This document shows positions 369-62,359 of a stretch of DNA of 62,533 nt, piece after piece (position 1 is the stretch's first letter; the number at the start of each line of letters is the position of its first letter). Both the position numbers and the translations under genes were made by a program. Where the stretch lies: contig NZ_JAAXOQ010000028.1 in NCBI RefSeq assembly GCF_012396015.1, positions 1 through 62,533 of the forward strand, written 5' to 3'. The stretch comes from Tsukamurella spumae. Lineage in GTDB: Bacteria; Actinomycetota; Actinomycetes; Mycobacteriales; Mycobacteriaceae. The notes beneath the pieces are model-generated. The model ran no database searches. It had not been told where the DNA came from and saw nothing but the letters and a program-made list of their open reading frames with translations.

Positions 369-1418
369 ATGAAGATCTCCAGCAAGCTCGTCGTCGGTGC
401 GCTCGGCGCCCTCGGAGCCGGTGTGGCGGCCGCCGCCGCCGGTGCCACCGCGTACGCGCTGTCGTCGCCGACGGAGCCGGCCAACGCCAAGCTGATCGAG
501 GACTACGACGGCCCGTCCGAGGACGGCACCGTCGTCTCCGGCGACGGGACCCGGCTGCACACCCGGACCTGGGGCCCCGTCGACGGACCGCTCGCGGTGC
601 TGGTCCACGGCTGGACGTGCAACGTGACCAACTTCCCGCGCCAGGTCGAGCACCTCGTCGCGCGCGGCTACCGCGTGATCGGCTACGACCAGCGCGGCCA
701 CGGCGCGTCGGAGGCGGGTGCGTTCGCGTTCTCCACCGGCGTTCTCGCCGACGACCTGCACGCCGTCCTCGATGCCCACGTGCCGGACGGTCGCCAGGCG
801 CTGCTCGTCGGCCACAGCATGGGCGCCATCACCATCATGGCGTGGGCCGGCAAGTACACCGACGAGGTCGCGGCGAAGGCGCACCACGTGGCCCTCATCT
901 CCACCTACGCCCGCGACGCGGTACCCGGCTTCGTCGGCGCCACGCCCCTGGCCGCGCTGTCGCGCATCGCCCCGCGGTTCACCGAGAAGGTGGGCGATGC
1001 CGTGCTCGGCGCATCCGTGAAGTTCCGCCGCAACCGGCTGCACACGGCCGCGATCCGCTACACCGCGCTGTGCGGCTACGCCTCGTACGGCGCGGTGACC
1101 TACACCGAGGACATGGTCGCCACCTGCCCGCCCGATGTCCGGGGCGAATGGGGCCACGTCCTGGCCGGTCTGGACGTGACCGACGGCCTGCGCAAGCTGA
1201 ACGTCCCCACCTCCGTGGTCGTCGGCCAGTACGACCACCTGACCCCGCCGTCGGACGCCGATGTCATCGCCGGCGAGCTGCGCGTCTCGGGCCACCTCGA
1301 CCGGTTCGCGGTGATCCGCGACTCCGGCCACATGCTCCCGCTGGAGCAGCCGGACAAGCTCAACGCCCTCCTCGACTCCATCCTCGACGGCCGGCCCGTC
1401 ACCTCCGGCGCCCCGTAA
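369..1418 (+). CDS. Alpha/beta hydrolase with N-terminal membrane anchor
   Basis: A 349-aa serine hydrolase of unknown substrate. Residues 6-32 form an Ala/Gly-rich hydrophobic signal or anchor, so the enzyme probably acts outside the membrane. The alpha/beta-hydrolase core shows the oxyanion HGW (80-82), the nucleophile elbow GHSMG (148-152, Ser150), an acid in GQYDHLTPP and a late His at about 321 (SGHMLP). TAAGGT at 356-361 lies 7 bases before the ATG, which suggests a leaderless start. A lipase or esterase is plausible, but the sequence does not show the substrate. Confidence 0.8.
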   Translation: MKISSKLVVGALGALGAGVAAAAAGATAYALSSPTEPANAKLIEDYDGPSEDGTVVSGDGTRLHTRTWGPVDGPLAVLVHGWTCNVTNFPRQVEHLVARGYRVIGYDQRGHGASEAGAFAFSTGVLADDLHAVLDAHVPDGRQALLVGHSMGAITIMAWAGKYTDEVAAKAHHVALISTYARDAVPGFVGATPLAALSRIAPRFTEKVGDAVLGASVKFRRNRLHTAAIRYTALCGYASYGAVTYTEDMVATCPPDVRGEWGHVLAGLDVTDGLRKLNVPTSVVVGQYDHLTPPSDADVIAGELRVSGHLDRFAVIRDSGHMLPLEQPDKLNALLDSILDGRPVTSGAP

Positions 1419-1448
1419 TAGCGCACCGTCGGACCGCGGAGCGAGGCG

Positions 1449-2351
1449 TCAGGAGAAGACGACGGTCTTGCGGCCGTGCACGAGCACCCGGTTCTCGAGG
1501 TGCCAGCGCAGGCCGCGGGCCAGCACGACCTTCTCGATGTCGCGGCCGCGGAGCACCATGTCCGCGGCGGCGTCGGCGTGGTCCACGCGCGCCACGTCCT
1601 GCTCGATGATCGGGCCGGCGTCGAGGTCCGCGGTCACGTAGTGGCAGGTCGCGCCGATCAGCTTCACGCCGCGCGCGAAGGCCTGGTGGTAGGGCCGCGC
1701 ACCGACGAAGCTCGGCAGGAAGCTGTGGTGGATGTTGATCGCCCGCCCCGCCCACGCCGCGCACAGGTCCGCCGGCAGCACCTGCATGAACCGCGCCAGG
1801 ACCACCGCGTCGGGGGCCAGCGCATCGGTGAGTTCCGCGACGCGAGCGAAGGCCGCCGACTTGTCCTCGCCCGGGCCGGGGAAGGGCACGTGGTGGAAGG
1901 GGATGTCGAGGCGCTCGGTGAAGTCGCGCAGATCCTCGTGATTGCCGATGACGGCGGCGATACGCGCGTTCAGCTCACCCGTCGCGACCCGGCCGACGAT
2001 GTCGTGCAGGCAGTGCCCCTCCTTGCTGACCAGCAGGACGATGTCCTTCGGCTCGGCGCTCGAGGTCAGCCGCCACTCGGTCTCGGGGCCGAGTTCCGCG
2101 GCGACCTCCGCCGCGAATCGCGCGCGCAGCTCGTCGAGTGAGAGGGCGATGCTGTCCGCCCGGACCGCCTGGCGGGTGAAGAACCAGCCGGAGTCCGCGT
2201 CGGAGTGGTACGCGGCCTCGACGATCCATCCGCCGACATCGGCGAGGAAGGTCGAGATGCGGGCGACGATGCCGGTGGTGTCGGGGCAGCCCAGGGTCAG
2301 GACATAGCGGGTATCGCGGGTCACGGACGGTATCGTCTCAGACGTGCTCAC
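1449..2351 (-). CDS. purU: Formyltetrahydrofolate deformylase PurU
   Basis: Hydrolyses 10-formyl-tetrahydrofolate to formate and tetrahydrofolate, balancing one-carbon pools and feeding formate to purine synthesis. The 300-aa protein has an N-terminal ACT-like regulatory domain (about 10-90) and a C-terminal formyl-transferase fold with the conserved INIHHSFLPSF and GATCHYVTADLDAGPI stretches that carry the Asn-His-Asp active site. The longest start is a GTG at 2351 that overlaps the start of divergent deoC by 8 bases. A second in-frame GTG at 2324 (protein start TRDTRYVLTL) matches the usual family N terminus and may be the true start. Confidence 0.9.
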   Translation of the reverse strand: MSTSETIPSVTRDTRYVLTLGCPDTTGIVARISTFLADVGGWIVEAAYHSDADSGWFFTRQAVRADSIALSLDELRARFAAEVAAELGPETEWRLTSSAEPKDIVLLVSKEGHCLHDIVGRVATGELNARIAAVIGNHEDLRDFTERLDIPFHHVPFPGPGEDKSAAFARVAELTDALAPDAVVLARFMQVLPADLCAAWAGRAINIHHSFLPSFVGARPYHQAFARGVKLIGATCHYVTADLDAGPIIEQDVARVDHADAAADMVLRGRDIEKVVLARGLRWHLENRVLVHGRKTVVFS

Positions 2352-60903: not shown

Positions 60904-60997
60904 ACGAGAACGTTTACACAATGAACACAAGCTGTGCCTCAGGTCACAGTTCTCGCAGGATTCTCTCGACGGGTCTACGACTAACAGGAGGACCACT

Positions 60998-62359
60998 GTG
61001 ACGGCAATCGACGGGGCGGCGCCGCCCGCCCGGACGAGACGGGACCGCACCCACTGGCTCTACATCGCCGTGATCGTCGCGGTGGTGGCGGGCGTGATCG
61101 TGGGCCTGGTGGCACCCGGCGTCGGCAAGGACCTCAAGCCGCTCGGCGACATCTTCGTCAGCCTGATCAAGATGATGATCAGCCCGGTGATCTTCTGCAC
61201 CATCGTGCTCGGCATCGGCTCGGTGCGCGCGGCGGCGAGCGTCGGGAAGATCGGCGGGCTCGCGCTCGGCTATTTCATCGCGATGTCGACCTTGGCCCTC
61301 GGCGTGGGCATTCTGGTCGGCAACCTGCTCAAGCCCGGCACGGGTCTCGGGATCCATCCCGACCCGGCGGTGGGCGCCAAGTACGCCGATCAGGCGCACG
61401 CGGCCGGCGGCACCTGGGGCTTCGTCCAGGGGATCGTCCCCGAGACCCTGTTCTCGGCGCTGACCGCGGGCAGTGTGCTGCAGGCCCTGTTCGTCGCGCT
61501 GCTCGTGGGCTTCGCGCTGCAGGCGATGGGGCCGGCGGGCGAGCCCGCGGTGCGTGCGATCGCGGTGCTGCAGAAGGTGGTCTTCCGCGTGCTGGTGATG
61601 GTGCTGTGGTTGGCGCCCGTGGGCGCCTTCGGCGCCATGGCGGCCGTGGTCGGCGCGACCGGTTTCGACGCGGTGATCCAGCTCGGCTGGCTGATGCTCG
61701 CCTTCTACATCACCTGCGGACTGTTCGTGTTCGTCATCCTGGGGTTGCTGCTGCGCTTGGTCACCGGGCTGTCGGTGTTCAAGCTCGCCCGGTACCTCGG
61801 CCGCGAGTACCTGCTGATCGTGGCGACCAGTTCGAGTGAGTCGGCGCTGCCGCGACTGATCGCGAAAATGGAGCACGCCGGAGTCGAGAAGACCACGGTC
61901 GGCATCGTCGTGCCCACGGGCTACTCGTTCAACCTGGACGGCACCGCGATCTACCTCACGATGGCATCGTTGTTCATCGCCGACGCCATGGGCTCGCCGT
62001 TGAACTACGCCGAGCAGTTCTCGCTGCTGCTGTTCATGATGATCGCGTCCAAGGGCGCGGCCGGCGTCACCGGCGCCGGGCTGGCGACGCTCGCCGGCGG
62101 CCTGCAGAGCCACCGCCCCGACCTGCTCGGCGGCGTGGGCGTCATCGTCGGGATCGACAGGTTCATGTCCGAGGCCCGCGCGCTCACCAACTTCTCCGGC
62201 AACGCCATCGCGACCCTGCTCATCGGGAAGTGGACCTCCACCATCGATCTGGCGCAGACCCAGCGCGTGCTCGACAAGCAGGACCCGTTCGACGAGGCGA
62301 CGATGGTCGACGACCACGGCGCACCGTCGGATCCCGCCCCGGCGGCGGCCGCACACTGA
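60998..62359 (+). CDS. dctA: C4-dicarboxylate:cation symporter DctA
   Basis: A 453-aa DAACS-family transporter for succinate, fumarate or malate with H+ or Na+. It has the re-entrant serine-rich TSSSESALPRLIAKMEHAGV, then GYSFNLDGTAIYLTMASLF and SKGAAGVTGAGLATLAGGL. The GTG start has a perfect AGGAGG site. It is divergent from the DcuS/DcuR-like pair, which probably induces it. After the stop come a 21-bp repeat copy and a hairpin. Confidence 0.92.
   Translation: MTAIDGAAPPARTRRDRTHWLYIAVIVAVVAGVIVGLVAPGVGKDLKPLGDIFVSLIKMMISPVIFCTIVLGIGSVRAAASVGKIGGLALGYFIAMSTLALGVGILVGNLLKPGTGLGIHPDPAVGAKYADQAHAAGGTWGFVQGIVPETLFSALTAGSVLQALFVALLVGFALQAMGPAGEPAVRAIAVLQKVVFRVLVMVLWLAPVGAFGAMAAVVGATGFDAVIQLGWLMLAFYITCGLFVFVILGLLLRLVTGLSVFKLARYLGREYLLIVATSSSESALPRLIAKMEHAGVEKTTVGIVVPTGYSFNLDGTAIYLTMASLFIADAMGSPLNYAEQFSLLLFMMIASKGAAGVTGAGLATLAGGLQSHRPDLLGGVGVIVGIDRFMSEARALTNFSGNAIATLLIGKWTSTIDLAQTQRVLDKQDPFDEATMVDDHGAPSDPAPAAAAH

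Follow-up and report, generated by a model that had tools for sequence, protein, structure and literature searches.

How does a non-palindromic nonamer come to occur about once per kilobase, in both orientations, in the DNA of a high-GC actinobacterium? This question is raised by a stretch of 62,533 nucleotides from Tsukamurella spumae (contig NZ_JAAXOQ010000028.1, positions 1 to 62,533; this whole stretch is hereafter called the window) and by the word GCACCGTCG, for which the first-pass annotation had estimated about 62 copies. The exact count is 63, of which 34 are on the plus and 29 on the minus strand. By comparison, dinucleotide-shuffled versions of the window contained 4.1 copies on average and 10 at most (n = 100 shuffles). 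As judged by gene calls made with our own script, 61 of the 63 copies are located within genes, and shuffling synonymous codons of these genes left 7.95 copies on average and never more than 16 (n = 200). The two remaining copies, at positions 1423-1431 and 33411-33419, are indeed intergenic, as had been proposed, and one-base variants are rarer, as had also been claimed: each of the 27 one-mismatch neighbours occurs 0 to 21 times in the window. In our view, the chances are evenly balanced that GCACCGTCG is an uptake-type motif that exists outside the Proteobacteria, in the genus Tsukamurella.

The excess extends over the whole 4.46 Mb genome (G000), in which 3261 copies of GCACCGTCG are present (1608 forward and 1653 reverse), compared to 74 copies (34 and 40) of the letter-reversed control word. 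A codon-preserving null was computed for a 622 kb sample covering 14% of this genome, to which the following counts refer. Of all 9-mers found 30 times or more in genes, GCACCGTCG was the most enriched word, with 455 copies against 56.6 expected from 12 shuffles, which is far outside the twofold limit that the first-pass annotation had set for giving up the motif. Moreover, the one-mismatch neighbours reached 0.26 to 3.65 fold under the same null and are thus not enriched equally to the motif itself (8 fold). The intergenic DNA contained 30 copies in 33 kb, a raw count made without a null, and the reversed word was absent there. A codon-pair bias of the genus, which had been listed as an option, or a protein-motif bias would agree with the genic location of 61 of the 63 window copies, many of which translate as Asp-Gly-Ala or Thr-Val. 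However, the intergenic density of 0.91 per kb is not below the coding density of 0.84 per kb, and all six frame relations exceed the codon null (60, 3.9 and 15 fold in sense and 30, 6.1 and 11.7 fold in antisense orientation, the highest ratios resting on small expectations). Such a bias is therefore hardly credible as the cause. Thus, the likening to the density of uptake sequences was justified in so far as a DNA-level motif of such density is present in the window and in the genome.

The one-base variants of GCACCGTCG form a graded, receptor-like profile, in which the outer positions are tolerant. Variants with A, C or T at position 1 were enriched 2.5 to 3.4 fold, those at position 2 by 1.7 to 2.2 fold, and at position 9 the values were 3.65 fold for A and 2.5 fold for T. 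Position 4 accepted T (2.35 fold) and G (2.2 fold). At positions 3 and 5 to 8, 14 of the 15 variants remained between 0.26 and 1.7 fold, the value of the remaining variant being based on 6 copies. Two words, GCACCGTGG (13 copies against 42.9 expected) and GCACGGTCG (18 against 37.2), were even depleted. The preference extends into the flanks, with G before the motif, A or G but not C directly after it and C three bases after it. The copy density increases with the GC content of the genes from 0.37 to 1.28 per kb, and the gaps between copies match a random process (coefficient of variation 0.90 to 1.04; longest gap 6.1 kb). A regular spacing of GCACCGTCG was therefore dropped. Paired inverted copies acting as terminators were also considered and dropped because there is no surplus of inverted copies at short distance; copies less than 150 bases apart had no clear preference for any orientation (19, 15, 12 and 12 pairs).

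All window copies are exact matches. In addition to the two intergenic ones, which are both on the plus strand, those on this strand are located at 526-534, 5490-5498, 6373-6381, 6630-6638, 7797-7805, 8354-8362, 8780-8788, 9974-9982, 10206-10214, 10460-10468, 11328-11336, 11677-11685, 11950-11958, 15841-15849, 19483-19491, 23602-23610, 24176-24184, 25086-25094, 26169-26177, 27492-27500, 27857-27865, 30212-30220, 37124-37132, 40731-40739 (inside purB), 42576-42584, 44616-44624, 48507-48515, 50833-50841, 52155-52163, 53786-53794, 57825-57833 and 62321-62329. The copies on the minus strand occupy 3337-3345, 5797-5805, 10551-10559, 10860-10868, 12024-12032, 16446-16454, 19088-19096, 19710-19718, 20107-20115, 25265-25273, 26778-26786, 30835-30843, 30886-30894, 31657-31665, 32041-32049, 38956-38964, 40130-40138 (inside purB), 42754-42762, 47211-47219, 50322-50330, 50505-50513, 51593-51601, 52033-52041, 54221-54229, 55395-55403, 56865-56873, 58859-58867, 59383-59391 and 60456-60464. 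Two further features of the window may be mentioned. Positions 1-29 are a run of 29 C at the start of the contig, which is most likely an artefact of assembly at the contig end and not a real tract, and the called gene at 27236-28549 (437 residues) had no Pfam or NCBIfam match at E 0.001.

Among the genomes searched, the excess is confined to one genus. The 16 Tsukamurella genomes, G000 included, contain 827 to 4002 copies each, compared to 44 to 940 copies in 45 genomes from other genera of the same family and 51 to 713 copies in 40 genomes from other families of the same order. A further 245 genomes, some of them shared with these 85 relatives, were drawn from the class. Densities in Tsukamurella, computed from rounded genome sizes, range from 165 to 817 per Mb and thus vary about fivefold between species; 15 of the 16 genomes (265 to 817 per Mb) surpass all genomes searched from other genera in this respect. 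The maximum among the latter is about 177 copies per Mb (G139; 1112 copies in 6.3 Mb), and the highest values of the class draw outside Tsukamurella belong to one genus (g93 of family f34), in which 12 genomes have about 134 to 177 copies per Mb. The two Tsukamurella genomes with the lowest densities, G007 and G008, are also the most distant ones, with about 76% nucleotide identity in the main window matches. G008, at 265 per Mb, still exceeds all genomes from outside the genus, and its core CACCGTC and the word TCACCGTCG are enriched 2.2 and 4.2 fold, respectively, over a third-order Markov expectation. In the stretches L112-L117 of G008, TCACCGTCG was found 28 times against 6.7 expected and GCACCGTCG 27 times against 11.6. 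In view of this enrichment, TCACCGTCG may be an early or older form, a variant or a dialect of the motif. In samples of 20 kb from seven genomes of other genera, no word took a similar lead, although samples of this size could miss one, and the top words of the purB-locus pools of other genera were ignored because pooled loci share genes. The window purB itself has 93% identity to its counterpart in Tsukamurella asaccharolytica and no more than 82% to any of the other 79 loci kept; its region shares 89.4% identity with Tsukamurella tyrosinosolvens, in which the neighbouring genes have a similar order.

The motif is also conserved in place. The window copies were compared with seven Tsukamurella genomes, using controls of the same composition and phase. 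Of the aligned copies, 22/43, 24/46, 18/36, 20/38, 9/33, 11/32 and 24/29 were intact, whereas the matching control fractions were 0.26, 0.28, 0.30, 0.27, 0.17, 0.21 and 0.50. The share of intact orthologous copies is thus 1.6 to 2 times that of controls, and in two partly aligned species 9/16 and 5/7 copies were intact against control fractions of 0.34 and 0.31. Fifteen other frequent words were intact at 0.19 to 0.41, compared to 132/265 for GCACCGTCG. Where glycine was retained, GGT was still its codon in 66 of 86 cases within the motif, compared to 185 of 747 cases outside it (odds ratio 10, Fisher p 4e-21, seven related species pooled); GTG was the sole listed codon without such a difference (16/22 inside, 2469/3463 outside). 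The flanks were marginally less conserved at motif sites than at controls (0.826 versus 0.844, a difference for which no significance was computed), and flanks of the DNA uptake sequence (DUS) of Neisseria are likewise slightly less conserved, according to the available part of the source (PMC2397512). The conservation in place implies that some process maintains or regenerates the motif.

The first-pass annotation had also considered a methylation site or a mutational bias. We treat these together, the bias being one of mutation and repair by which the motif would be favoured although it has no selected function. The presence of the motif on phages and on a plasmid (see below) would be expected if all resident DNA were affected. 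However, no methyltransferase of the three families searched is present in all 16 Tsukamurella genomes: PF01555 was found in 4, PF02384 in 12 and PF00145 in 14 of them, G000 not being among the latter, and other families were outside this search. A single mutational bias fits poorly as well since it would have to account for nine specified positions of graded tolerance and since the single-base differences in orthologues touch all nine positions and comprise many kinds of change, including transversions. The retention of GGT inside the motif also argues against it. We regard an explanation of this type as quite improbable.

The motif is carried by mobile elements as well. The temperate phage TPA4 contains 19 copies in the 50 kb examined of its 56.2 kb; its genes (50 of the 76 features of the first 50 kb) have 17 copies against 3.9 under the codon null, a number that none of 300 shuffles reached. 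Phage TPA2 carries 17 copies in 61 kb, and its genes (58 of the 62 features of the first 50 kb) have 14 copies against 3.6 expected and a maximum of 9 in 200 shuffles. On the plasmid pTpau01, for which 12 plus 27 of 87 features entered the codon null, a peptide-synthetase cluster contains 31 copies against 4.4 expected, and 27 other genes have 7 against 1.8. In contrast, the phages TIN2, TIN3 and TIN4, which were isolated on Tsukamurella and have a lower GC content, carry 4 copies each in 76-77 kb, and TIN2 is near expectation (2 copies against 1.0 in 21 genes, of the 61 features of the first 50 kb). The motif occurs 2 to 10 times in each of eight TPA2-like phages of Gordonia and Mycobacterium and once in a Skermania phage. 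Carriage by phages does not contradict an uptake sequence since the uptake signal sequence (USS) of Haemophilus is also carried by Pasteurellaceae phages; among six of them, HP1, HP2 and Aaphi23 have 17 copies each, S1249 has 20 and PHL101 and SuMu have none. Two side observations concern the plasmid records. In L089 and L093, both of which represent pTpau01, the 9-mer GGCGATCGC, which contains the HIP1 octamer of cyanobacteria, is also enriched (44 copies against 10.3 expected). Moreover, a record of 224 kb filed as a T. tyrosinosolvens plasmid (L092, NZ_LR134464.1) has purB, purD, purS and purQ as well as 143 motif copies (0.64 per kb), and it is probably a chromosome contig that was mislabelled as a plasmid.

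Carriage of the motif by phages and the plasmid could also protect them if GCACCGTCG were a Chi-like signal for RecBCD or AdnAB, by which an enzyme resecting broken DNA would spare self DNA and start recombination. Among the classical alternatives, this is the foremost one. RecC was matched in all 16 Tsukamurella genomes (AdnAB was outside the search), and the reverse form of the motif, CGACGGTGC, includes GGTG, like the Chi sequence of Escherichia coli. However, polarity is one criterion for Chi according to the accessible text of a study on this signal (PMC8022716), and the copies are not polarised with replication. In 20 stretches of 20 kb (400 kb, about 9% of each genome), Tsukamurella paurometabola has 75 copies in leading and 80 in lagging orientation, which, provided that the record begins at the origin, rejects a skew of 75% (p 1e-12). 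The best split into halves gave 84:71 in this species and 130:116 in G004. The claim that there is no Chi- or KOPS-like skew thus held for the T. paurometabola sample, and an FtsK-orienting polarity from origin to terminus was not seen in any of these counts. Furthermore, RecC was also matched in 18 of the 45 relatives, and RecC as a genus-specific reader was dropped. Taken together, a Chi-like signal is rather improbable. In one single-contig genome (G014; 83% completeness), recC is broken up into four matches that lie in different reading frames (C1:2299046-2302221), perhaps due to sequencing errors.

An uptake sequence would account for the limitation to the genus, the graded tolerance, the placement, the conservation in place, the strand symmetry and the density of the motif. 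In this scenario, a DNA receptor at the surface or in the cell wall would preferentially bind motif-bearing DNA during natural transformation, and the imported kin DNA would recombine into the chromosome. By this recombination, biased import would load the genome with the motif at tolerant positions and keep it there, and maintenance would be due to molecular drive, possibly together with selection for the uptake of kin DNA. The genetic equipment is consistent with such a process: ComEA and ComEC were matched in 16 of 16 Tsukamurella genomes each, and in G000 comEA directly precedes comEC in an intact operon. We infer that Tsukamurella may be competent, that uptake may be motif-dependent and that the motif may have ComEA or a pilus protein as its reader. 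The ComEA of G000 carries an SLBB and an HHH domain. In a comparison of the 30 loci with the highest scores (16 Tsukamurella loci and 14 of the 43 others with a match), one site of the HHH domain is Lys in 16/16 genus sequences, whereas the others have Glu in 11/14 and Lys in none, and another site is Asp in 16/16, whereas the others have Gln in 11/14 and Asp in none. The net charge of the domain ranges from -2 to +3 in the genus and from -1 to -5 in the others. As a rule, HHH domains show no sequence preference in DNA binding. As a suggestion drawn from aligned residues, these changes make ComEA a candidate reader of the motif, not more.

Several observations weigh against an uptake sequence. 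The first group concerns the reader. ComEA and ComEC are also present in 43 and 44, respectively, of the 45 relatives, which lack the motif excess. The charge of ComEA correlates with motif density (Spearman 0.68) but more closely with relatedness to G000 (0.92), and motif density itself tracks relatedness (0.64) and the GC content of the comEA locus (0.50). The correlation is thus confounded by relatedness and was discarded as evidence of reading. The number of genus-fixed sites in ComEA (4/61) does not differ significantly from that in PurB (10/469, p 0.066; 13 genus sequences and 14 chosen others for PurB), and in Haemophilus ComE1 was ruled out as the receptor of the USS by an earlier search (PMC12616744). 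The second group concerns the distribution of the copies. Uptake sequences have a favoured orientation, and in Pasteurellaceae the copies are biased to gene termini, as described in the part of the source at hand (PMC2346458). By contrast, the position of GCACCGTCG along genes is flat without a bias at gene ends in the 622 kb sample, and the orientation bias in genes is small (214 sense and 196 antisense copies). The basal genome G007 does not exceed the background with its 165 copies per Mb; this assembly consists of about 890 contigs and is poorly sampled. Copies present in a single species were diverged from their homologues in 10/24 cases compared to 2752/9822 controls. An origin of such copies by recombination was therefore not retained since the difference is not significant (p 0.17), although its direction is that described in the accessible part of the Neisseria study (PMC2397512). 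Moreover, poorly conserved stretches of the window are no poorer in GCACCGTCG, with 0.94, 1.21 and 0.94 copies per kb where 0-1, 2-4 and 5-7 of the seven species align. With respect to recently acquired DNA, in which an uptake sequence should be scarce, the picture is mixed: low-GC blocks, low-GC genes and the TIN phages are poor in the motif, but these stretches and pTpau01 are not. The third group concerns the mobile elements. The density of pTpau01 (44 copies in 99.8 kb) is about that of its own genome (1911 copies in 4.5 Mb). TPA2 has a modest excess, with CACCGTCG in ninth place among 700 8-mers, and this phage, which is described as lytic (PMC4972346), should not pass through transformation, yet it bears the motif. 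Transformation alone does not account for a lytic phage with the motif.

The plasmid and the phages would fit well with a binding site for a nucleoid or chromosome-organising protein that is specific to the genus (or for a topoisomerase), which would require about one site per kb on any replicon and whose sites would be kept by selection where codons allow. The plasmid density, the carriage by TPA2 and TPA4, the lack of any preference for orientation, polarity or position in genes and the conserved positions of the motif are all in line with such a protein. However, no candidate was found in searches limited to ComEA, ComEC, RecC and methyltransferases, the spacing is random with gaps of up to 6.1 kb, TIN2-4 have only 4 copies each although Tsukamurella was the host of their isolation, and the density differs about fivefold between species. 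We therefore consider a chromosome protein unlikely, albeit less so than a Chi-like signal. Returning to the uptake sequence, we would tentatively propose, with somewhat less confidence than for the uptake-type motif as such, that sequence-tagged uptake across the mycolic-acid envelope evolved independently of that in Neisseriaceae and Pasteurellaceae. The reader of the self tag of 9 to 12 bases would be ComEA or a pilus protein associated with it; the tag would have arisen on the stem of the genus, would be weak in its basal lineages and would have spread to plasmids and host phages.

According to the accessible part of a recent report, Neisseriaceae and Pasteurellaceae are the only families known to have such motifs (PMC12616744). 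The main text of a paper on Micrococcus luteus, an actinobacterial model of competence, contains neither 'uptake sequence' nor 'DUS' in the part available (PMC8467076). In agreement with the first-pass annotation, in which no such motif was known for this group, we met no report of GCACCGTCG in the open-licence literature, of which a part of the papers with these nine letters was covered. If GCACCGTCG is an uptake tag, it would be a third independent case of tagged uptake, now in high-GC bacteria with mycolic acids, that could help to separate general rules from accidents of two lineages, and it would suggest that relatives of Mycobacterium are functionally competent. Moreover, motif densities that differ about fivefold within one genus would lend themselves to comparative tests. 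Otherwise, GCACCGTCG is still a strongly conserved genome-wide motif for which we met no report in the open-licence literature searched, and its reader could be found by pull-down experiments.

How does the motif compare to known systems? HIP1 of cyanobacteria is a palindromic octamer, GCGATCGC, with lineage-limited abundance and an unknown reader. The likeness to HIP1 that had been suggested does not extend to symmetry, since GCACCGTCG is not its own reverse complement. Like the Chi sites of RecBCD, GCACCGTCG is short, abundant and non-palindromic, but Chi differs in being polarised with replication. The USS of Pasteurellaceae shares with it a nine-base core and the carriage by some phages (17-20 copies in four of six), but it has a different sequence and, according to the available text, a bias to gene termini (PMC2346458) that GCACCGTCG lacks. 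Compared to the DUS of Neisseriaceae, the host differs, Tsukamurella being a high-GC actinobacterium with mycolic acids and putative competence only, a receptor of the ComP kind is known on the DUS side while the Tsukamurella reader is a candidate, and close inverted pairs of GCACCGTCG are not in excess. However, like the DUS, GCACCGTCG is short, abundant, present on both strands and limited to a related group, and it is conserved in place with flanks that are slightly less so, as far as described in the accessible part of the Neisseria study (PMC2397512). Finally, GCACCGTCG has the letters CCGTC in common with GCCGTCTGAA of the DUS (PMC6370729), which may be due to chance.

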